From positions 1 to 32,607 of the IMG/VR virus record IMGVR_UViG_3300013131_000143: 32,607 nt of DNA; one strand, 5' to 3'. Position 1 is the stretch's first letter, and each line of letters begins with the position of its first letter. The notes under the pieces were generated by a model. The model did not search any database and had not been told where the DNA came from. It worked only from the letters and a program-made list of their open reading frames with translations. Positions 3,914-19,209 of this stretch are shown piece by piece. The DNA comes from a virus. The translations under genes were made by a program, and so were the position numbers.

Positions 3914-3942
3914 ATTATACTATCAAATAACCAAAATGTCAA
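3914..3942 (-). promoter_or_regulatory. Consensus sigma70-like early promoter, leftward
   Basis: On the minus strand, TTGACA (3937-3942), a 17-bp spacer, TATAAT (3914-3919). Its -35 is only 3 bp from the -35 of the rightward promoter, so the two fire back to back. Serves the gene at 3614-3883. Confidence 0.88.
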
Positions 3943-3945
3943 CCA

Positions 3946-3974
3946 TTGACTTTTAGATTAACTGAGTATATAAT
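3946..3974 (+). promoter_or_regulatory. Sigma70-like early promoter, rightward, apparently leaderless
   Basis: TTGACT (3946-3951), 17-bp spacer, TATAAT (3969-3974). The first ATG of the array (3982) is 7 bases after the -10, about where transcription should start, so the first gene would be read from a leaderless or nearly leaderless mRNA. No Shine-Dalgarno sequence is possible there. Confidence 0.85.
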
Positions 3975-3981
3975 AGTATAA

Positions 3982-4275
3982 ATGGATATCAAAGTTAAAA
4001 AACTTGGCAAGAATAAATGGGAAATGCGCCTAGTGCCCCCTGATGATTACGATTTTATTAAGAAGCCACCTAAGTACACAGATATAAATGAAGCACGTAT
4101 AGCCGCAGAAGAGTTCAAGCAGCACGACGATACTGTCGCTCAGATCAATGAAGAGCTAGTATCTTCAGACTTTACCATGTGGAGCCGCCAGGCTTATGAT
4201 CGTTGGCACTGGTATGACAAAGATGAAATGAATAGATTTGTAACCTACTTTACACTAAAGCATAGCAAGAAATGA
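3982..4275 (+). CDS. Array protein 1: small acidic/aromatic protein of a tandem paralogue family
   Basis: 97 aa. The N-terminus (MDIKVKKLGKNKWEMRLVPP) looks like a beta hairpin, followed by an acidic helix (INEARIAAEEFKQHDDTV). The C-terminus RWHWYDKDEMNRFVTYFTLK matches the family ending in which an acidic/Ser turn precedes a helix carrying F.L. It is the first gene of a twelve-gene plus-strand chain and overlaps the next by 4 bp (ATGA). It appears to be translated leaderlessly from the promoter at 3946-3974. Function unknown. Confidence 0.8.
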   Translation: MDIKVKKLGKNKWEMRLVPPDDYDFIKKPPKYTDINEARIAAEEFKQHDDTVAQINEELVSSDFTMWSRQAYDRWHWYDKDEMNRFVTYFTLKHSKK

Positions 4276-4589
4276 CCAGCATCAGATACTACAAAGACCC
4301 AAATATAGTCAGACTTGATCGTAGATACAAGGGCTACAATCGCGGCTTTAGATATCGCGTTGACTTTGACACGCAGGGCATGGGCAAATGGGAACGTTGG
4401 CATGCTGTGACCAAATGGTGCGAGCAGACTTGGGGCAAGGAATATGAATTCCATGCTAGCGGCGTTTTTTCACGTCGCACGTGGAACGATAACTGGCGTG
4501 TAGAAACTGGCAAAAACAAGTACTATAGACACTTATATCTACGCAGTGAACAAGACCTAACAATGTTATTATTGGTGATCGAGACTTAA
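4272..4589 (+). CDS. Array protein 2 (sister of array protein 3)
   Basis: 105 aa. RLDRRYKGYNRGFRYRVDFD is followed by a Trp-rich helix (WERWHAVTKWCEQTWGKEYE) and the C-terminus YLRSEQDLTMLLLVIET. It is clearly paralogous to the next gene, with the same RYK.Y..GFRYR start and the identical LRSEQDLTMLLLVI end. The DNA of the 3' ends shares a perfect 32-bp match. It begins in an ATGA overlap with the previous gene and its stop overlaps the next start by one base (TAATG). Function unknown. Confidence 0.82.
   Translation: MTSIRYYKDPNIVRLDRRYKGYNRGFRYRVDFDTQGMGKWERWHAVTKWCEQTWGKEYEFHASGVFSRRTWNDNWRVETGKNKYYRHLYLRSEQDLTMLLLVIET
4548..4579 (+). repeat. 32-bp perfect direct repeat, copy 1
   Basis: Identical to 4823-4854. 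It encodes the C-terminal EQDLTMLLLV of array protein 2 and marks recent duplication or gene conversion between array genes 2 and 3. Confidence 0.9.
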
Positions 4590-4864
4590 TGGTAGAAAAA
4601 TTAGACGCAAGGTATAAATGGTACAGGCAAGGATTTCGTTATCGTATAGTGATCGGTGTTAGAAGTCTGTCAGCACTAAATCATTGGATAGCGATAGCAG
4701 CAAGGCTTGAAGAGACATATGGTAAAGAACGCTATCTAAACGCCAATGGATTTTTGGTATTCAACGACTACTACAGAACAGATATGCCATCTAAACGGTG
4801 TAGACAAGTTTATCTGCGTAGCGAACAAGACCTAACAATGTTATTATTGGTGATAAATCAGTGA
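4589..4864 (+). CDS. Array protein 3 (sister of array protein 2)
   Basis: 91 aa. KLDARYKWYRQGFRYRIVIG, a helix (WIAIAARLEETYGKERY), NANGFLVFNDYYRT and the terminal VYLRSEQDLTMLLLVINQ. It aligns from end to end with array protein 2 but lacks part of that protein's N-terminus and one loop. The start is coupled to the previous stop by TAATG, and the next gene starts at GTGA overlapping its stop. Function unknown; the pair is the youngest-looking duplication in the array. Confidence 0.82.
   Translation: MVEKLDARYKWYRQGFRYRIVIGVRSLSALNHWIAIAARLEETYGKERYLNANGFLVFNDYYRTDMPSKRCRQVYLRSEQDLTMLLLVINQ
4823..4854 (+). repeat. 32-bp perfect direct repeat, copy 2
   Basis: Identical to 4548-4579, at the same place within the coding sequence of array gene 3. 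Confidence 0.9.
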
Positions 4865-5139
4865 AAGCTGTGATACTAAAACATCGTGAGTGGGATAAGA
4901 TTTTTGCTCAACTTAAACAAGACTACGCCCATAGTCCTGCTACCTACTTAATCCGAGGTCGCATGAAAACAGATCTAGGTTTTACCTATCGTGAACATGT
5001 AGAGTGGAATCGAGAAGATCTTGTTCCTGGGCTAGACCACGATTGGCGAGATGAGCGTAGTCAAATACACATTGACTTTTACAGTGAAAGTGCTCGCACT
5101 TACTTTTTATTGAAGTACATGAATCGTGACGAAAGTTGA
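4861..5139 (+). CDS. Array protein 4
   Basis: 92 aa with a GTG start overlapping the previous stop (GTGA). KAVILKHREWDKIFAQLKQD leads into a charged middle and the family ending IHIDFYSESARTYFLLKYMN (beta strand, Ser/Glu turn, helix ending F.L.Y). It is the least Trp-rich member and carries many Arg and Asp residues. No known domain; assignment to the family rests on the C-terminal pattern and its place in the chain. Confidence 0.75.
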   Translation: MKAVILKHREWDKIFAQLKQDYAHSPATYLIRGRMKTDLGFTYREHVEWNREDLVPGLDHDWRDERSQIHIDFYSESARTYFLLKYMNRDES

Positions 5140-5140
5140 G

Positions 5141-5353
5141 ATGTGGCCGCCGCCAGACTGGACTGAGGTAGTTATAACTTGGACTTGGATTATGGCCAGC
5201 CACAACCACGACATCAATGAATTGTTTAAATGGCTTAATAAACAGCCGGGCGGTAATTATCATTTGTCTGGCAAGGGTGAAGAACACGATTTTGCCTTTA
5301 GATTCGAAAACCCAGCAGATGCTGTTTGGTTTAGTATGAACATACCCTCATGA
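5141..5353 (+). CDS. Array protein 5
   Basis: 70 aa from the ATG at 5141, one base after the previous stop. A GTG at 5126, overlapping the previous gene by 14 bp, is an alternative. MWPPPDWTEVVITWTWIMAS, helix INELFKWLNKQ, then HDFAFRFENPADAVWFSMNI, which fits the family ending (F.F..p.dA..F.). It is short and Trp-rich. The next gene starts in the ATGA of its stop. Function unknown. Confidence 0.75.
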   Translation: MWPPPDWTEVVITWTWIMASHNHDINELFKWLNKQPGGNYHLSGKGEEHDFAFRFENPADAVWFSMNIPS

Positions 5354-5682
5354 CAAAGATACCTAAAAATCAAATTACTCAAGTTATCATCGATGAAGAT
5401 ATTTGGCATGAAGATAACGAAGCCGAATGGTATATATTCAATCGCAACCCTAACTGGGATGATGTTGTAGGTGAGAACATGTCATGGCAATGGTACATGG
5501 AACGTGACATACGTGTACGCGAAGGATGGGCGTATGTAGTTATTCATCCTAATCATAAAGTAGAAACAGCTATGAATTGGTTAAAGGAACACTATCCCGA
5601 CTGTGCTGTTAAAACAGAATGGCAGCACATGTTAATATCAGACTCTGAAGCAGCAACTATGGTAGCACTACAATGGGCTTAG
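5350..5682 (+). CDS. Array protein 6
   Basis: 110 aa. An extended acidic N-terminus (VIIDEDIWHEDNEAEWYIFN) precedes the shared module: WAYVVIHPNHKVETAMNWLK (strand then helix), EWQHMLISDSEAATMVALQW. The last two codons before the stop, TGG GCT, carry the start of the next gene: CAATGG contains ATG at 5673. Coupled translation is likely because no good ribosome-binding site precedes the next start. Function unknown. Confidence 0.8.
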   Translation: MTKIPKNQITQVIIDEDIWHEDNEAEWYIFNRNPNWDDVVGENMSWQWYMERDIRVREGWAYVVIHPNHKVETAMNWLKEHYPDCAVKTEWQHMLISDSEAATMVALQWA

Positions 5683-5966
5683 AAGATACTGATTTAGAGC
5701 AACTGGTCTTAGATGACCTGGCTGCAGAAATGCAGCAACACATGGACAGTAAGGTTATGTATGGTCTTATGATGATGTATTGGAAACAACAAGGATGGCA
5801 TACAGTTAAGATCAGCAGATTCCAAGATAATCATCATGCTGTGGATATTACCTATTGGCTAGCTGAACAGGGTTTGGTAGACAAAGAAGATTACTATCGT
5901 GAAGGTAGCGAGTTTGTTTTTCAAGATAGCAAACATGCTACACTATTTGCCTTAAGGTGGGTATGA
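5673..5966 (+). CDS. Array protein 7
   Basis: 97 aa. An acidic N-terminal extension (LEDTDLEQLVLDDLAAEMQQ), then GWHTVKISRF, helix AVDITYWLAEQ and the ending FVFQDSKHATLFALRW. With array protein 8 it best defines the family module (GW.xVKIS ... W..EQ ... F.F..s.hAT.F.LRW). Its start lies within the conserved terminal Trp codon of gene 6 (10-bp overlap). Function unknown. Confidence 0.82.
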   Translation: MGLEDTDLEQLVLDDLAAEMQQHMDSKVMYGLMMMYWKQQGWHTVKISRFQDNHHAVDITYWLAEQGLVDKEDYYREGSEFVFQDSKHATLFALRWV

Positions 5967-6244
5967 GACCGGCACCGGCAGAGCGTCAACGATGCGAGCA
6001 GATCCTAGAAGAGCAAGGGTGGACTGTGGTTAAAATTTCTAAAAATCTCATGCGAGTAGAACCTTCGGAATATCTTAATATGGCACATTGGTGTGAACAA
6101 TATATTGGCAGTGGTCGGTTAGAACCCGGACATAATTGGCTCGATGGTCGAGATGTTTGGTACAGCTTTACATGGTACGGCTATTGGAGTTTTCATTTTA
6201 AGCATGAGCGAGATGCTACAGCGTTTACCCTGAGGTGGCAATGA
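5963..6244 (+). CDS. Array protein 8
   Basis: 93 aa from the ATG at 5963, which overlaps the previous stop as ATGA. A GTG at 5957, inside the previous gene's terminal Trp codon, is in frame and possible. QILEEQGWTVVKISKN, NMAHWCEQYIG, WYSFTWYGYWSFHFKHERDA and TAFTLRW show the complete family module, with an unusually aromatic beta strand. Function unknown. Confidence 0.8.
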   Translation: MRPAPAERQRCEQILEEQGWTVVKISKNLMRVEPSEYLNMAHWCEQYIGSGRLEPGHNWLDGRDVWYSFTWYGYWSFHFKHERDATAFTLRWQ

Positions 6245-6480
6245 GAAACTTTCAGTTTTTAGATGATCTAGGTGCGCCGTTGGCAGCCATGGTAGATAAT
6301 CCTATATGGTGGGCAGATAATATGTGTGCCATCTCTGAGTGGTTAGAGAAATATGATTGTGAACAGTCAATTTATGGTGGATTGATTATGCTACCAAGCG
6401 AAGAAGTTAAAACAATGTTTATTCTAGAGTGGATGTGGGACAGGTTATTCAAATTGGCAGAAACGCAGGTAAATCAATAG
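6241..6480 (+). CDS. Array protein 9
   Basis: 79 aa from the ATG at 6241 (ATGA overlap with the previous stop). A GTG at 6235 within the preceding Trp codon is an alternative. NFQFLDDLGAPLAAMVDN, helix AISEWLEKYDCEQ, GGLIMLPSEEVKTMFILEWM, then a short extra tail (WDRLFKLAETQVNQ) not present in its neighbours. The family ending is recognisable but with Glu in place of Arg before Trp. Function unknown. Confidence 0.75.
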   Translation: MRNFQFLDDLGAPLAAMVDNPIWWADNMCAISEWLEKYDCEQSIYGGLIMLPSEEVKTMFILEWMWDRLFKLAETQVNQ

Positions 6481-6482
6481 TT

Positions 6483-6728
6483 ATGGAACAGACTATGGCA
6501 GAACGTATTAAAGGACACTGGACAATAGAACAGTTTCTACAGCAACAATTGGTTGCGTCAGACCGTGGACCTGAACATAATGAGACGTGGATGACTGAAC
6601 GCTTACAAAAATGGTGGCCGGGCCCGTATCGTGTGGAAAAGGTAATTGACTACCAATGGCAAAGTGTTGAATATAAGATTGTGTTTAACAGCCCAGAAGA
6701 AGAAACTTGGTTTAGGTTACAGAACTGA
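6483..6728 (+). CDS. Array protein 10
   Basis: 81 aa from the ATG at 6483, two bases after the previous stop. An upstream in-frame start would overlap the previous gene by 52 bp. MEQTMAERIKGHWTIEQFLQ, a Trp-rich middle (WMTERLQKWWPGPYRVEKV) and VEYKIVFNSPEEETWFRLQ, which fits the F..p.e...F.L ending. The stop overlaps the next start (TGATG). Function unknown. Confidence 0.75.
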   Translation: MEQTMAERIKGHWTIEQFLQQQLVASDRGPEHNETWMTERLQKWWPGPYRVEKVIDYQWQSVEYKIVFNSPEEETWFRLQN

Positions 6729-6964
6729 TGAGTATATTAGACGGAGCCAACGGGCGTAGGTTTATAGCATCAGGACCGTTTGATGATGAAATGCCCTATC
6801 ACTATATTGTTATTGCTGATATCAGTTATTGGATGAAAAACGAACCAGCAATATATGAGTGGATGGACGAAAACTTACCTAGAGGTCGTCTACATCAAGA
6901 AGGTATGACTGTGGTATTAGAATCAGAAGAACAAGTAACAGCATTTATATTACGATGGGCATAA
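6728..6964 (+). CDS. Array protein 11
   Basis: 78 aa. GRRFIASGPFDDEMPYHYIV, helices ISYWMKNEPAIYEWMDENL, then GMTVVLESEEQVTAFILRW. This is a clear family member with the canonical LRW end. The terminal CGATGG carries the ATG (6955) of the next gene, as at 5673. Strongly acidic. Function unknown. Confidence 0.8.
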   Translation: MSILDGANGRRFIASGPFDDEMPYHYIVIADISYWMKNEPAIYEWMDENLPRGRLHQEGMTVVLESEEQVTAFILRWA

Positions 6965-7158
6965 AGTTTAAAAAGATATCACAAAGTGACCGTGCTTGTT
7001 TTTACGCTCTTATGGAAGATGTTGGGGCTAAAGAATACAGGGGGTTAGTAGAATGGCTCACGGTACACTGCCCTGACACTTACGAGCTTAGTAATATGCA
7101 CCTAATCATTGCTCGAGAAAACGAACTGTTTTTTGAATTGACTTTTGCAGTGGAATAA
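6955..7158 (+). CDS. Array protein 12 (last of the array)
   Basis: 67 aa. GIKFKKISQSDRACFYALME, YRGLVEWLTVHCPDTYEL, MHLIIARENELFFELTFAVE. It has the strand-helix-strand-helix order of the family, but the terminal RW is replaced by FAVE. Its start lies in the Trp codon of gene 11. The last codons hold the -35 (TTGACT, 7138-7143) of the methyltransferase promoter, which may explain the diverged end. Function unknown. Confidence 0.75.
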   Translation: MGIKFKKISQSDRACFYALMEDVGAKEYRGLVEWLTVHCPDTYELSNMHLIIARENELFFELTFAVE

Positions 7159-7166
7159 TATACACT
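7138..7166 (+). promoter_or_regulatory. Sigma70-like promoter of the methyltransferase, apparently leaderless
   Basis: TTGACT (7138-7143), 17-bp spacer, TACACT (7161-7166). The ATG at 7174 is 7 bases after the -10, the same geometry as the array promoter. The -10 is weaker (4 of 6 consensus bases). Confidence 0.55.
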
Positions 7167-7173
7167 ATCAATT

Positions 7174-8346
7174 ATGATAAACAATTTACATAAAATTTGG
7201 GGTACAGAACAGTATCATACTCATGCTATCCTACAAGGCTGGCACGAGTTTACCTGTTACGAAGCAGTAGCTGATCAATTGGCGACCTACACCAAAGCTC
7301 GTTACGATCAAACACCAGATCAAATCATGCAAGAAGTGTTTGATTTATATCGCAATATTAACATTGTGCCCATCGTTTACTACACCGAACAAGGACTCAA
7401 ACGAGAAATCCTAAACTTAGACAATACTATAGCCAACAGTGTTGAGATTATGGAAACAGCCATTGAACTTAAACGGAATCCAACTATACCTCTAGGCAAT
7501 AACCAAGGACAAAGTATTAACAGATTTTGTTTTCCTAATATGATGACTGCTGAACCCAAAGGTCGCGGCAGTAATAGTTTAAAGGATCGCTTTTATGATG
7601 ACAGAAAATTGGAACGAGCTATTCGTCTTTGTTTTGAGCACAGGGATGGTAATAATCTCGTTAGTCCTACAGCACTACGTAGAGCTTTGGAATTGGTCAC
7701 CGGTGAAAACATTCAAAACTTTAAGCCCCTTAACGCACGTGCGATTGTGGAGTACTTATGCCCAACGCTTTGGGGTAATGTCTATGATTATAGTAGCGGG
7801 TATGGTGGTCGTTTACTGGGTATTACGACCAGTAAGATGCGCTATAACTATACCGGTATCGATCCTAACACAGAAACGGTCAAATACTTAAACTACTTAA
7901 ACGACTTAATTTATGATAGTATCGGTAATAGAGGTACTATTGTTAAAAGTGTAAGTGAGGAATATAAGCCAGATGACGGTGTTGACTTAGCATTTAGCAG
8001 CCCGCCATACTTTAACTTAGAGAAGTACTCAGACGAGCCTACGCAGTGTATGAATCAATTCACCACATTAGATGATTGGTTTGATGGTTATGTAGCGCCT
8101 ACCATGAAAAACATCATTGGTAGTTTAGAGGATGATGGGTTGTTTGCTACTAACATCGCTGACTATAAAATAGGTAAGGATAAAGAATTTAAAGTAGTTG
8201 ACCGTTGGATAGAGACCGCTGAGAAGATTGGATTTAAGCATACAACAATGATCAAGATGATGTTAAACACACGCCCGGGAGTAGGCAACGATAAAACAGC
8301 AGGCCGTGAAAAGTTTGAAGGTGTTTATGTCTTCCGCAAAAAATAA
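7174..8346 (+). CDS. Orphan DNA methyltransferase (SPPY type)
   Basis: 390 aa. Likely transfers a methyl group from S-adenosylmethionine to an amino group of adenine or cytosine in DNA. SSGYGGRLLG at about residues 207-216 is the SAM-binding motif I, followed by YTGIDPNTE (motif II), and SSPPYFNLEKY at about 275-285 is catalytic motif IV. The SPPY form is common in N4-cytosine enzymes. The N-terminal ~200 residues, with a stretch PNMMTAEPKGRGSNSLKDRF, may hold target recognition. No restriction endonuclease is adjacent, so protection of phage DNA or regulation is more likely than restriction. It follows the twelve-gene array and overlaps the next gene by 20 bp. Confidence 0.85.
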   Translation: MINNLHKIWGTEQYHTHAILQGWHEFTCYEAVADQLATYTKARYDQTPDQIMQEVFDLYRNINIVPIVYYTEQGLKREILNLDNTIANSVEIMETAIELKRNPTIPLGNNQGQSINRFCFPNMMTAEPKGRGSNSLKDRFYDDRKLERAIRLCFEHRDGNNLVSPTALRRALELVTGENIQNFKPLNARAIVEYLCPTLWGNVYDYSSGYGGRLLGITTSKMRYNYTGIDPNTETVKYLNYLNDLIYDSIGNRGTIVKSVSEEYKPDDGVDLAFSSPPYFNLEKYSDEPTQCMNQFTTLDDWFDGYVAPTMKNIIGSLEDDGLFATNIADYKIGKDKEFKVVDRWIETAEKIGFKHTTMIKMMLNTRPGVGNDKTAGREKFEGVYVFRKK

Positions 8347-8620
8347 CGATTTCTACAAAGATTTGCCCAGACGTATAGATACTATCTTAGGCGATGATCA
8401 GCACTTACATAGACTTAAACAATTAGCTGATGCTCGTAATGCCTGGATGAAAGAATTTGGACAGGGACCTAAATGTTTGATTGATACTTGGTCGTTTGCT
8501 GAATGGTTGCAAAATCGCTGGGGCATAGAGTTAAAGTACAATGCTGAAAGTATGGGCCTAACTGGATATGATGTAGTAGATGAACAAAAGTACCTACTGT
8601 TTTGTATGGTGTTTCCTTAG
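8327..8620 (+). CDS. Small hypothetical protein downstream of the methyltransferase
   Basis: 97 aa from the ATG at 8327 (MSSAKNNDFYKDLPRRIDTI), with GAAGG upstream; an upstream in-frame start adds 7 residues. The middle is helical (LHRLKQLADARNAWMKEFGQ), followed by CLIDTWSFAEWLQNRWGIEL and a hydrophobic end (LLFCMVFP). The WSFAEWL segment loosely recalls the array helices (W..EWL), but the C-terminal LRW motif is absent. Its stop overlaps the stop of the convergent minus-strand metallopeptidase. Function unknown. Confidence 0.75.
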   Translation: MSSAKNNDFYKDLPRRIDTILGDDQHLHRLKQLADARNAWMKEFGQGPKCLIDTWSFAEWLQNRWGIELKYNAESMGLTGYDVVDEQKYLLFCMVFP

Positions 8621-9261
8621 TGTCGAGTAGCACGTTTTTTAGTCATAACTTTATACATACGCAAATCTTTGGCATTGTTTATTATCTTTTTATGTAATCG
8701 TTTAATCACATTGTGATCTTTACCAAATGCTCGTACATAAATTGCTATGTCTCTACTTAATCCTAACCCTAAACTGTGCTTAACTGCTATATTGTAAGAG
8801 TAAGCATCAATTTCGTCACTGTTGCCTAAATATTCTTGTTCAGCACGCAATTCTATATCTGTTACATTACTTCTGTAGGCTCTAGGCAGCATGAATCTCC
8901 GACTACGGTACTGGTATTGGTGTCGATATTCATGACTCATTGTTTCTATTAGATCTGAAGCTATTTCTTTGGCCAACTTCTCTGTAATTAGCCACTGATG
9001 ATTCTTGTCATAGTTAATTATAAAATGAAAAACAAAAGGTTTTTTGTGTTGTTCATCTAGAGATGATTCGTAGGTGCCCCCAATAGTAAAGTCACCGGGA
9101 TCTAGTAAGATATTGCTGTGCTCTAATGTCACTGAAATATCGTGCCTGCGATTAAGAAATATCCCCAGGCGCCGTACAAAACTTTTTGGTGTTATTTTTT
9201 TGTTGACAAGTTTATCCAACCATTGAACAATTAAACGATATTCAACAGTTGGATTAAACAT
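8617..9261 (-). CDS. Putative zinc metallopeptidase (HEXXH)
   Basis: 214 aa. ETMSHEYRHQYQYRSRR at about residues 106-122 contains the zinc motif HEYRH (H110, E111, H114), and GNSDEIDAYSYN (E150) is a candidate third ligand, as in gluzincin-like peptidases. A basic C-terminus (KKRATRH) and no signal peptide suggest a cytoplasmic or virion protein. The preceding gene lies directly upstream. The role is unknown; processing of a virion or host protein is possible. Sequence similarity to a named family cannot be checked here. Confidence 0.7.
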   Translation of the reverse strand: MFNPTVEYRLIVQWLDKLVNKKITPKSFVRRLGIFLNRRHDISVTLEHSNILLDPGDFTIGGTYESSLDEQHKKPFVFHFIINYDKNHQWLITEKLAKEIASDLIETMSHEYRHQYQYRSRRFMLPRAYRSNVTDIELRAEQEYLGNSDEIDAYSYNIAVKHSLGLGLSRDIAIYVRAFGKDHNVIKRLHKKIINNAKDLRMYKVMTKKRATRH

Positions 9262-11142: not shown

Positions 11143-11454
11143 CTAAGTAATAATACCACCGGCACTAGCAGGTTGTATGCCTGTTGTTGTTTGGATGTAA
11201 TGATTCCTAACTGCTTCCACTGTTTTACTACTCATCATTACATGTGCCTTGCCAAGGGTTACATTATTATTTAACTCACTTGTAAATAGACTCTGTATCA
11301 ACCCCAATCCTTGGGCACTAGGCATCACTGTGCATGGTTTGCTAACGGTATAACCATTATCAGTTTCTTCAACAATTTTGGCAACAATCTCATCACCATT
11401 GACCATTTTAAAACTTACGATTTCATCTCTTTCATAATTTAGATTTTTAAGCAT
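11143..11454 (-). CDS. Small protein, possibly Sm-like fold
   Basis: 103 aa from the ATG at 11452-11454, chosen because GAGGA lies 5 bases upstream; an upstream start adds four residues. VSFKMVNGDEIVAKIVEETD followed by GYTVSKPCTVMPS resembles the strand pattern of Sm/LSm domains (a bent beta strand with .NGDEI..KI). The tail, GKAHVMMSSKTVEAVRNHYI, would be helical. It overlaps the inactive glutaredoxin gene by 8 bp. If truly Sm-like it could bind RNA or form a ring; that is inference. Confidence 0.7.
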   Translation of the reverse strand: MLKNLNYERDEIVSFKMVNGDEIVAKIVEETDNGYTVSKPCTVMPSAQGLGLIQSLFTSELNNNVTLGKAHVMMSSKTVEAVRNHYIQTTTGIQPASAGGIIT

Positions 11455-11719
11455 TGAGTTCCTCAATTCGTTGATTAATTTCTTCTACTGTTAAATTTGT
11501 AATATCTTTAAATCCGTTGTCCCAAACTACTTGATTGTTAACATAGAACTGTGGGCACGGATAATGTCTAAGATCTCGACCTTGTGATTCTAAAAATGTA
11601 ACAGCTTCGGGGGTAGTTTCGACGTTAATTTCGTCAAAATCAATGCCTAGATCTATTAGAAATTTTCTTGCAACTGCATTTCTAACTGCTCGATCGGTGT
11701 ATAATTTTAATTTTGCCAT
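11447..11719 (-). CDS. Glutaredoxin-fold protein without the active-site cysteines
   Basis: 90 aa. KLKLYTDRAVRNAVARKFLI replaces the usual Y....CP.C, then LGIDFDEINVETTPEAVTFL, and HYPCPQFYVNNQVVWDNGFK matches the cis-Pro strand (TAPQ/TVPQ region) and the following GG/NGF turn of glutaredoxins. The only cysteine (about residue 55) sits next to the cis-Pro. AGGAG is well placed for the start. It immediately follows the active glutaredoxin and probably arose from it; it could act in binding or regulation instead of redox chemistry. Confidence 0.75.
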   Translation of the reverse strand: MAKLKLYTDRAVRNAVARKFLIDLGIDFDEINVETTPEAVTFLESQGRDLRHYPCPQFYVNNQVVWDNGFKDITNLTVEEINQRIEELNA

Positions 11720-11720
11720 G

Positions 11721-11969
11721 TTAGGCTCCTAGTTTTTCCTGTAACTCTTCATCAGTTAACTTAGCCAGTCCTTGATAACCGCCTTCCACAAATAATGATT
11801 CGCCTAGATACAGTTGTGGTGCAGTTCTGTGGCCCCGACCAATTAACCATTCTCTAGCTTCAGAATCTGTATCTATATTTACTATCTCAAACGGGATATT
11901 TTTTGTTGTTAGTAAATGTTTTGCTTTGTCACAAAACGGGCAATTATTTTTTGAATATACAGTTAGCAT
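11721..11969 (-). CDS. Glutaredoxin, reductant for ribonucleotide reductase
   Basis: 82 aa. MLTVYSKNNCPFCDKAKHLL carries the dithiol CPFC site (C10, C13); RTAPQLYLGESLFVEGGYQG holds the cis-Pro and the GG glutathione-binding turn. Length is typical of bacterial and T4-type glutaredoxins. It lies directly downstream of nrdB and nrdA, and is expected to reduce the NrdA C-terminal cysteines after each turnover. Glutaredoxins can also hold Fe-S clusters, which may matter given the Fe-S genes elsewhere in the window. Confidence 0.9.
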   Translation of the reverse strand: MLTVYSKNNCPFCDKAKHLLTTKNIPFEIVNIDTDSEAREWLIGRGHRTAPQLYLGESLFVEGGYQGLAKLTDEELQEKLGA

Positions 11970-18192: not shown

Positions 18193-18513
18193 CTAGACTG
18201 TAAAGGATTCTCCGCAGCCACATTTACCAGATTCGTTGGGATTAATAAATTCAAAGCCTTCGTTTAGTCCCTTCTTTTGCCAATCTATTTGCAGACCTTG
18301 CAAGTACACCAAATCCTTTCCGCTTACAAATATACTAACACCCCAACTTTTAAATTCGTCATCCCACGAATTGCGCTCATCAACAAATTCTAACACGTAG
18401 CTCATGCCACTACAACCAGCAGTTTTGACGCCAATCTTAATGCCTATGCCCTTGCCTCTGGCTTTCAGACTAGCGCGAACTTTTTCTGCAGCTATTTCAG
18501 TTAAGGTAATCAT
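18193..18513 (-). CDS. iscA: A-type Fe-S carrier, IscA-like
   Basis: 106 aa. Receives and delivers Fe-S clusters or iron. It keeps the three ligand cysteines: [19 protein letters not shown] (~C34) and [12 protein letters not shown] (CGC at the C-terminus). The stretch SYVLEFVDE and [13 protein letters not shown] closely match bacterial IscA. It is the third gene of an iscU-erpA-iscA cluster and its ATG overlaps the erpA stop (ATGA). Length is normal for the family. The high similarity to a host-type protein suggests acquisition from a proteobacterium. Confidence 0.92.
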
Positions 18514-18839
18514 ACACCAAAACTACTACCACATCCACAGGTAGTTTGTGCATTAGGATTTTTAATTGAAAATTGGCTACCACTTAGGCTTTCTGTGTAG
18601 TCAATTTCGGCACCATTTAAGTACTGACCGCTCATACTGTCTATCAGTAGATGTACTCCGTCGAACTCTAAGTCAAAATCATCTTCATTTACATCTTCAT
18701 CAAACGTAAATCCGTACTGAAAACCACTGCATCCGCCACCTTGTACAAACATACGCAGTTTTAAGTTTGGATTGTTTTCTTCTGCTAATAATTCTTTAAC
18801 TTTATTAACAGCATTATCATTCATTTTAACTAGTTCCAT
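18510..18839 (-). CDS. erpA: A-type Fe-S carrier, ErpA-like
   Basis: 109 aa from the ATG at 18837-18839, chosen because AGGA is 7 bases upstream; starts at 18857 or 18824 are possible. Transfers Fe-S clusters to target proteins. [20 protein letters not shown] and the C-terminal [11 protein letters not shown] carry the three cysteines. [16 protein letters not shown] and [14 protein letters not shown] are near-identical to ErpA as I know it. It overlaps the iscU gene slightly upstream and iscA downstream, so the three are co-translated. Confidence 0.92.
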
Positions 18840-19209
18840 GTTTTTTCCTATAATCATCTATAGCACTTTTAATAGCATCTTCTGCTAAAACCGAACAGTG
18901 GATCTTAACTGGGGGTAAGGCAAGTTCTTCGGCAATCTCGCTATTCTTAATCTCTTGAGCTTGGTCAAGCGTTCGACCTTTAAGCCACTCAGTGACCAAA
19001 CTAGAACTAGCTATTGCACTTCCACAACCGTAGGTCTTAAATTTTGCGTCCGTAATAATACCGTTTTCTACCTTTATTTGTAGTTTCATTACATCACCGC
19101 AAGCTGGCGCACCAACCATACCTGTGCCAACTTGCGGATCTTCCTTATCCATACTCCCAACATTTCTAGGATTTTCATAATGATCTAGGACCATTTTTGA
19201 ATAGGCCAT
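18826..19209 (-). CDS. iscU: Fe-S cluster assembly scaffold IscU
   Basis: 127 aa. Scaffold on which [2Fe-2S] clusters are built from sulfur given by the desulfurase IscS. All functional residues are present: [15 protein letters not shown] (C37, D39), [18 protein letters not shown] (C62), the HscA-recognition LPPVK (98-102) and IHCSVL (H104, C105). Full length and highly similar to proteobacterial IscU throughout. No iscS, hscA/B or fdx gene is in this window, so host partners would be needed. A perfect late promoter (TATAAATA, 19244-19251) lies upstream. Confidence 0.96.

Follow-up and report, generated by a model that had tools for sequence, protein, structure and literature searches.

A divergent family of small overlapping genes arrayed in an environmental phage contig and present in jumbo phages

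The window analysed here is the viral record IMGVR_UViG_3300013131_000143 over its full length of 32,607 nucleotides (nt), and the subject is a tandem array of twelve small plus-strand genes (g1 to g12) at 3982-7158. Eleven of the twelve, together with one candidate gene outside that interval, belong, as judged by profile comparison, to one family of divergent proteins, provisionally called the F-x-L-[RK]-W array family. The kind of array is known; the family itself, the extent of its divergence and the design of its gene junctions are, as far as the tools show, new.

Membership of the array genes

All twelve open reading frames (ORFs) recognised by the original prediction were found, each of 67-110 codons and every one overlapping its successor by 1-52 nt (successively 4, 1, 4, 14, 4, 10, 10, 10, 52, 1 and 10 nt), the overlap being exactly 10 nt at four of the eleven junctions. 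Tryptophan reaches 5.2% in the array as against 1.4% in the remaining window genes. The proteins are mostly acidic (median isoelectric point, pI, 5.4), 72% of the environmental family members lying below pI 6.5; g2 and g3 have a pI of 9.7.

A seed alignment of the window members and those of two related contigs was extended by iterative searching of 5,585 distinct ORFs taken from 196 loci. The resulting family hidden Markov model (HMM) of 55-57 positions has 192 members at E<1e-3, the best reversed decoy standing at 0.037, and 78 representatives of them remain at a 55% identity limit. The iterated search joins g5-g11 (5126-6964) strongly as one divergent family (E 8e-7 to 4e-21) and g2 weakly (E 4e-4), g3, g4 and g12 being linked by HHalign only. 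The HHalign probabilities were read against 30 control families built identically from other window genes, single-pair E-values being left unused: they amount to 83% for g2/g3, 87% for g4, 79% for g12 and 67% for the gene at 8306-8620, while the controls peak at 11.6%. In addition, the g12 orthologue group contains a main-family member (L083:153-383), and the homologue of the 8306-8620 gene in the related contig L083 is located within the array. The proposal of variants of one small compact domain is thus borne out by the family HMM and by the HHalign links; the layout once ascribed to all twelve genes holds for most of them, g1 (1.4%) not being joined to the family. The latter has 20 homologues, many of them immediately 3' of a leaderless promoter.

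The g5-g11 members retained scores of 2e-14 to 7e-4 when the model was trained without their own subfamily. With the last 15 residues, whose likeness could stem from constraints on the DNA, removed as well, g5, g7, g9 and g11 stay at E<1e-3 and g6 reaches 0.006; g8 (0.1) and g10 (5) then rely on the C-terminal part. Furthermore, an HMM built only from members in the cultured Sinorhizobium phage Phosso recovers 93 of 193 environmental members, plus one extra match. Two contigs (L172:7791-8237 and L174:576-1022) carry the homologues of g10 and g11 as a single fused ORF of 148 codons. Scans of the array genes against Pfam, PHROGs, NCBIfam and PADLOC and a PDB sequence search gave no significant family match, and no DNA similarity to phage records was found.

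The related contig L082 equals the window across their shared ~10.4 kb save for one base in the g9 stop position at 6436-6438 (L082:489), which reads TGA in L082 and TGG in the window, so that g9 extends to 81 instead of 67 codons. This difference could reflect genuine polymorphism or could stem from an error in the consensus.

Gene junctions, promoters and predicted fold

The commonest ending of the environmental members is F-x-L-R-W-x-stop, and the commonest junction DNA is (A/G)AGGTGG-NN-ATGA, in which a Shine-Dalgarno sequence stands about 5 nt before the next ATG and this ATG overlaps the stop codon. AGG accounts for 40 of the 50 arginine codons of the Leu-Arg-Trp motif (80%), as against 41 of the 370 other arginine codons of the same genes (11%; p about 5e-24), and a terminal tryptophan is present at 45/45 junctions with a ten-nt overlap compared with 15/45 of the others. 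The Phosso members end in F-K-L-x-(W/F), mostly with other junction types (4-nt overlaps for the most part, as opposed to the 10-nt overlaps of environmental arrays); the aromatic ending is therefore a protein feature, whose environmental form is additionally set by the translation start of the next gene. The overlapping genes also lend support to the coupled translation that had been suggested for the array.

An early-type expression signal, missed by the original prediction as was the AGG-borne junction signal, is present ahead of g1, in the form of a near-consensus sigma-70 promoter (Table 1). Within the first half of the window, the three sites that match sigma-70 best lie at 3942(-), 3946(+) and 3072(-), the second half holding one 11/12 match with an 18-nt spacer. 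In 13 further loci the ATG of the g1 orthologue likewise lies 6-7 nt past the -10 box, whereas promoters of this type are in many cases followed by other genes whose start is 20-34 nt past it. Across 467 kb, 77 promoter matches were counted against 3.2 expected, and 32 short-spaced ones against 0.2, counts that are not independent events because the contigs are related. The single indication of timing is the promoter type, which suggests that the array would be expressed early. The leftward operon opposite the array (followed in L143, L151, L154, L159, L170 and L171) starts at a consensus promoter and varies in content among relatives, several products, such as MEHTMTYTFDENLVSDLHKDARG, recurring between them.

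Structures were predicted with AlphaFold for two members, the g11 model being good (23 aligned sequences, predicted template modelling score 0.76) and that of g4 moderate (17 aligned sequences); their predicted local distance difference test values (pLDDT) are given in Table 1. Both models agree in a strand-helix-strand-strand-helix order, the first paired strand of g11 being very short. The fold may be a ferredoxin-like plait without its last strand. A Foldseek search with the g11 model gave no PDB match; in BFVD it matched four proteins of "uncultured Caudovirales phage" (A0A6J5LH04, A0A6J5M1U5, A0A6J5L954 and A0A6J5T3Y2) with a Foldseek probability of 1.00 and 28-51% identity, which are unnamed there and have not been recognised as a family, but probably are members of this one. 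Further BFVD matches are small uncharacterised tailed-phage proteins (9-21% identity, probability 0.84-0.99). The g4 model matched similar small phage proteins and, weakly, papillomavirus E2 DNA-binding domains. Conserved family positions are hydrophobic apart from a basic one in the last helix, occupied by R/K in environmental members and by K in Phosso, and the C-terminal strand and helix form the best-conserved region. The family alignments contain neither a conserved polar catalytic set nor an invariant Cys or His; an enzyme is thought unlikely because catalytic residues are not conserved.

Distribution, turnover and neighbouring genes

Arrays homologous to that of the window occur in dozens of environmental virus contigs. 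In many of these they take up the equivalent position, adjoining a methyltransferase gene and the homologue of the window gene at 8617-9261, and they differ in both the content and the order of their members. The window reads g4-g5-g6-g7-g8-g9-g10-g11-g12-methyltransferase; L084 reads methyltransferase-8306 gene-g12-phosphoesterase-x-g4-g5-x-g6-g7-x-g9-g8-g10-g11, and L083 methyltransferase-g12-x-g11-x-g8-x-x-8306 gene-g6-x-g4-g5.

In cultured phages, a search with the family profile at E<=0.01 gave matches at 48 places for Phosso (469 kb), at 6 for Agrobacterium phage Atu_ph07 and at 3 for Pseudomonas phage PA5oct, with a model that partly included members from the first two phages but none from PA5oct; a model predating any cultured-phage member gave 38, 6 and 3 places, respectively, at E<=0.05. 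The copy number per phage runs from 2-3 up to about 48. At E<=0.01 the profile matched nothing in T4, S-PM2, P-SSM2, RaK2, 121Q, BF, XaC1, SCTP-2, Vibrio 2.275, phiM9, X1 and YB07. The proteins found, which include gp255 and gp258 of Atu_ph07 and gp209, gp210 and gp237 of PA5oct, are annotated as hypothetical only and became members by profile search. The gene for gp237 lies near ribonucleotide reductase genes and a metallophosphoesterase gene, types that also neighbour environmental arrays. Unlike nearby structural genes, the three PA5oct members carry no note of detection in virions by electrospray ionisation tandem mass spectrometry, which small proteins can escape. In Phosso the members are spread over many dispersed loci, many of them arrays. 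Dense clusters (PV764938.1) lie at 2.9-14, 95-100, 113-118, 348-349, 369-371 and 377-378 kb, among tRNA and translation-related genes, and some hypothetical genes beside them resemble sub-threshold family members.

Outside these phages, the g11 subfamily was scanned against 84,980 cellular genomes and had a single, chance-level match, on a contig of a Thermoplasmata metagenome-assembled genome, which was rejected because the family HMM does not match it. Searches of phages with single members by tblastn returned only Phosso, Atu_ph07 or chance-level matches, a weak one in the marine virus AG-345-L05 not being supported by the HMM. The DnaB-type helicase of the window has its nearest cultured relatives in PA5oct (52%), Atu_ph07 (50%) and Phosso (48%), all jumbo phages, and environmental contigs of up to 329 kb carry relatives of it; the phage of the window may itself be jumbo-sized.

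The original prediction held that the family had diversified under selection. This is unsupported, since on the ratios of nonsynonymous to synonymous change (pN/pS) between the window and L084 the array orthologues are under purifying selection: g5 0.04, g11 0.17, g9 0.26, g12 0.27, g10 0.34, g8 0.42, g4 0.45, g7 0.53 and g6 0.57, compared with 0.07 for nrdA, 0.17 for the methyltransferase and 0.52 for the 8617 gene. Positive selection was rejected at the level of orthologues by this range. The constraint on g5 (96% identical) and g11 (90%) is about that of ribonucleotide reductase and methyltransferase. Family diversity is instead that between ancient paralogues, together with gene gain, loss and reordering. 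Synonymous divergence (dS) is 0.5-1.2 for most array genes (g9 1.7) against 1.4-1.6 for nrdA, nrdB and the methyltransferase, and the lower values are compatible with recent exchange.

Among the other window genes, the conserved array neighbour at 8617-9261 (-) has an invariant HExxH-type motif (HEYRH) and no Pfam match; from this motif its product is probably a zinc metallopeptidase. Three consecutive genes for iron-sulphur cluster assembly lie at 18193-19209 (-) of this phage genome and comprise two A-type carriers (PF01521) and one NifU_N/IscU-like scaffold (PF01592). Beside ribonucleotide reductase, two small genes adjoin at 11447-11969 (-), the second encoding a glutaredoxin (PF00462) and the first, which lacks a Pfam match, apparently specifying another, divergent protein of the thioredoxin fold.

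Table 1. Positions of array genes, junctions, promoters and adjoining genes in the window
Feature	Position	Strand	Remarks
g1	3982..4275	+	Conserved array head gene; family membership not supported (HHalign 1.4%)
g2	4272..4589	+	Divergent family member; HMM 4e-4, HHalign 83%
g3	4589..4864	+	Close g2 paralogue; C-terminal LRSEQDLTMLLLVI common to both
g4	4861..5139	+	Divergent family member; HHalign 87%; AlphaFold2 pLDDT 70.8
g5	5126..5353	+	Family member, WPPPxW subfamily; HMM 8e-15
g6	5350..5682	+	Family member; HMM 8e-13
g7	5673..5966	+	Family member; HMM 4e-18
g8	5957..6244	+	Family member; HMM 4e-12
g9	6235..6480	+	Family member, read-through version; HMM 4e-9
g10	6429..6728	+	Family member via C-terminal part; HMM 8e-7
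g11	6728..6964	+	Family member; HMM 4e-21; AlphaFold2 mean pLDDT 89
g12	6955..7158	+	Divergent family member; HHalign 79%
Candidate thirteenth member	8306..8620	+	Divergent, past the methyltransferase; HHalign 67%
g7/g8 junction	5954..5966	+	AAGGTGG (Shine-Dalgarno-like, Leu-Arg-Trp) then ATGA; g8 ATG 5963, g7 TGA
g8/g9 junction	6232..6244	+	GAGGTGG then ATGA; g9 ATG 6241
Array sigma-70 promoter	3946..3974	+	TTGACT-17-TATAAT; g1 ATG 7 nt past -10 box; leaderless or nearly so
Divergent consensus promoter	3914..3942	-	TTGACA-17-TATAAT, 12/12; faces leftward small-gene operon; divergent pair conserved in relatives
Second promoter	7138..7166	+	TTGACT-17-TACACT; 7 nt before methyltransferase ATG
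DNA methyltransferase-like gene	7174..8346	+	PHROGs 3.5e-6, PADLOC MTase_II 5.5e-6; array neighbour in L083/L084

Proposed role and alternative explanations

The explanation preferred here, which has about an even chance of being correct, reads the array as an early operon that encodes small binding proteins without enzymatic activity, whose genes undergo birth-and-death turnover and whose host targets are presumed. It would belong to a phage related to the jumbo phages PA5oct, Atu_ph07 and Phosso, and a strong host-type sigma-70 promoter would give an essentially leaderless mRNA. Serial translation of this mRNA is proposed because the 3' end of many genes doubles as the Shine-Dalgarno site for the gene that follows, and the ATG of the latter overlaps the stop; the Leu-Arg-Trp codons (usually YTN-AGG-TGG) would thus serve twice. 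Eleven of the twelve genes are ancient paralogues encoding one small domain, predicted as strand-helix-strand-strand-helix, in which the hydrophobic core is conserved and catalytic residues are not, and the set of members turns over by duplication, loss, reordering and exchange. The products would act at the start of infection by binding different protein partners of the host or of competing viruses, redirecting host functions or blocking defences. This reading is drawn from the lack of a catalytic set, the small size of the proteins and the acidity of most of them, the early-type promoter, the lack of virion notes in PA5oct and the rapid turnover of genes. The host-directed or multi-target inhibitor action suggested in the original prediction is likewise presumed. 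Three points weigh against this reading: several members are basic (g2, g3 and 39% of those in Phosso), a property that would fit proteins binding nucleic acids; the searches matched no host factor, defence system, inhibitor, counter-defence homologue or structural analogue; and purifying selection with near-identity of g5 and g11 across viruses is unlike the arms race of fast-changing inhibitors.

A further proposal, more tentative, is that of a plug-in effector repertoire, in which one small binding domain would have radiated, reaching about 50 paralogues in some phages, with a separate host or competitor protein as the target of each. As the C-terminal coding sequence would also be the ribosome-binding site of the next cassette, cassettes could be inserted, lost and reordered without breakage of the operon.

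The main rival to binding proteins is that the products are regulators binding RNA or DNA, with a ferredoxin-like plait minus its last strand, the paralogues controlling phage or host expression through different sites. The weak E2 matches of g4, the high pI of g2 and g3, the conserved basic residue of the last helix and the nearness of Phosso arrays to tRNA and translation genes agree with such a role, which is nevertheless considered unlikely given that most members are acidic, that g11 has no PDB fold match and that the Shine-Dalgarno sequence at least partly imposes the conserved arginine. Less probable still is one hetero-oligomeric assembly of varying composition, such as a lattice of mixed subunits or a packaged set of internal proteins, held together through the conserved C-terminal helix: coupled translation would favour fixed ratios and the C-terminal strand and helix are best conserved, but the range in copy number, the PA5oct members without virion notes and the scattered loci of Phosso speak otherwise. 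Purifying selection, strongest on g5 and g11, makes very improbable a largely selfish or neutral array in which duplicates with little distinct function accumulate through their own downstream translation signal and homologous ends, as the cassette-like junctions, permuted order and large copy-number differences might suggest. Finally, convergence of unrelated genes on a Leu-Arg-Trp ending imposed by the next gene's Shine-Dalgarno sequence and start codon, for which the AGG bias, the terminal tryptophan and the loss of the g10 link on trimming could be cited, is the least credible account and in its pure form was rejected for most members, as the links of g5, g7, g9 and g11 survive removal of the last 15 residues, Phosso keeps an F-x-L-x-aromatic ending mostly without such junctions and the Phosso-only HMM recovers environmental members.

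The papers searched describe tandem arrays for phages G and 121Q and, for G, an expansion of zinc ribbons as well, but no description of the F-x-L-[RK]-W family was found in them. The 121Q-type arrays of tandem paralogues likewise represent a jumbo-phage region enlarged by duplication of one small gene; however, their genes are very similar to each other, whereas members of the present family are mostly less than 55% identical, and 121Q has 0 family matches. The zinc ribbons of Bacillus phage G, in ~35 copies (PMC7824862), are also a lineage-specific expansion of one small jumbo-phage domain, from which the array family differs in having no conserved Cys/His set and no Pfam match and in belonging to a different phage group.

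Dozens of orphan jumbo-phage genes, as many as about 48 of them from a single cultured phage, are joined here in a family for which a fold is predicted, and their function thereby becomes testable in culturable hosts, namely Sinorhizobium, Agrobacterium and Pseudomonas. That the ribosome-binding site of the next gene can partly determine a protein motif is a warning for motif-based family building, and an ending that encodes such a site is a possible mechanism for the modular growth of operons in phages.

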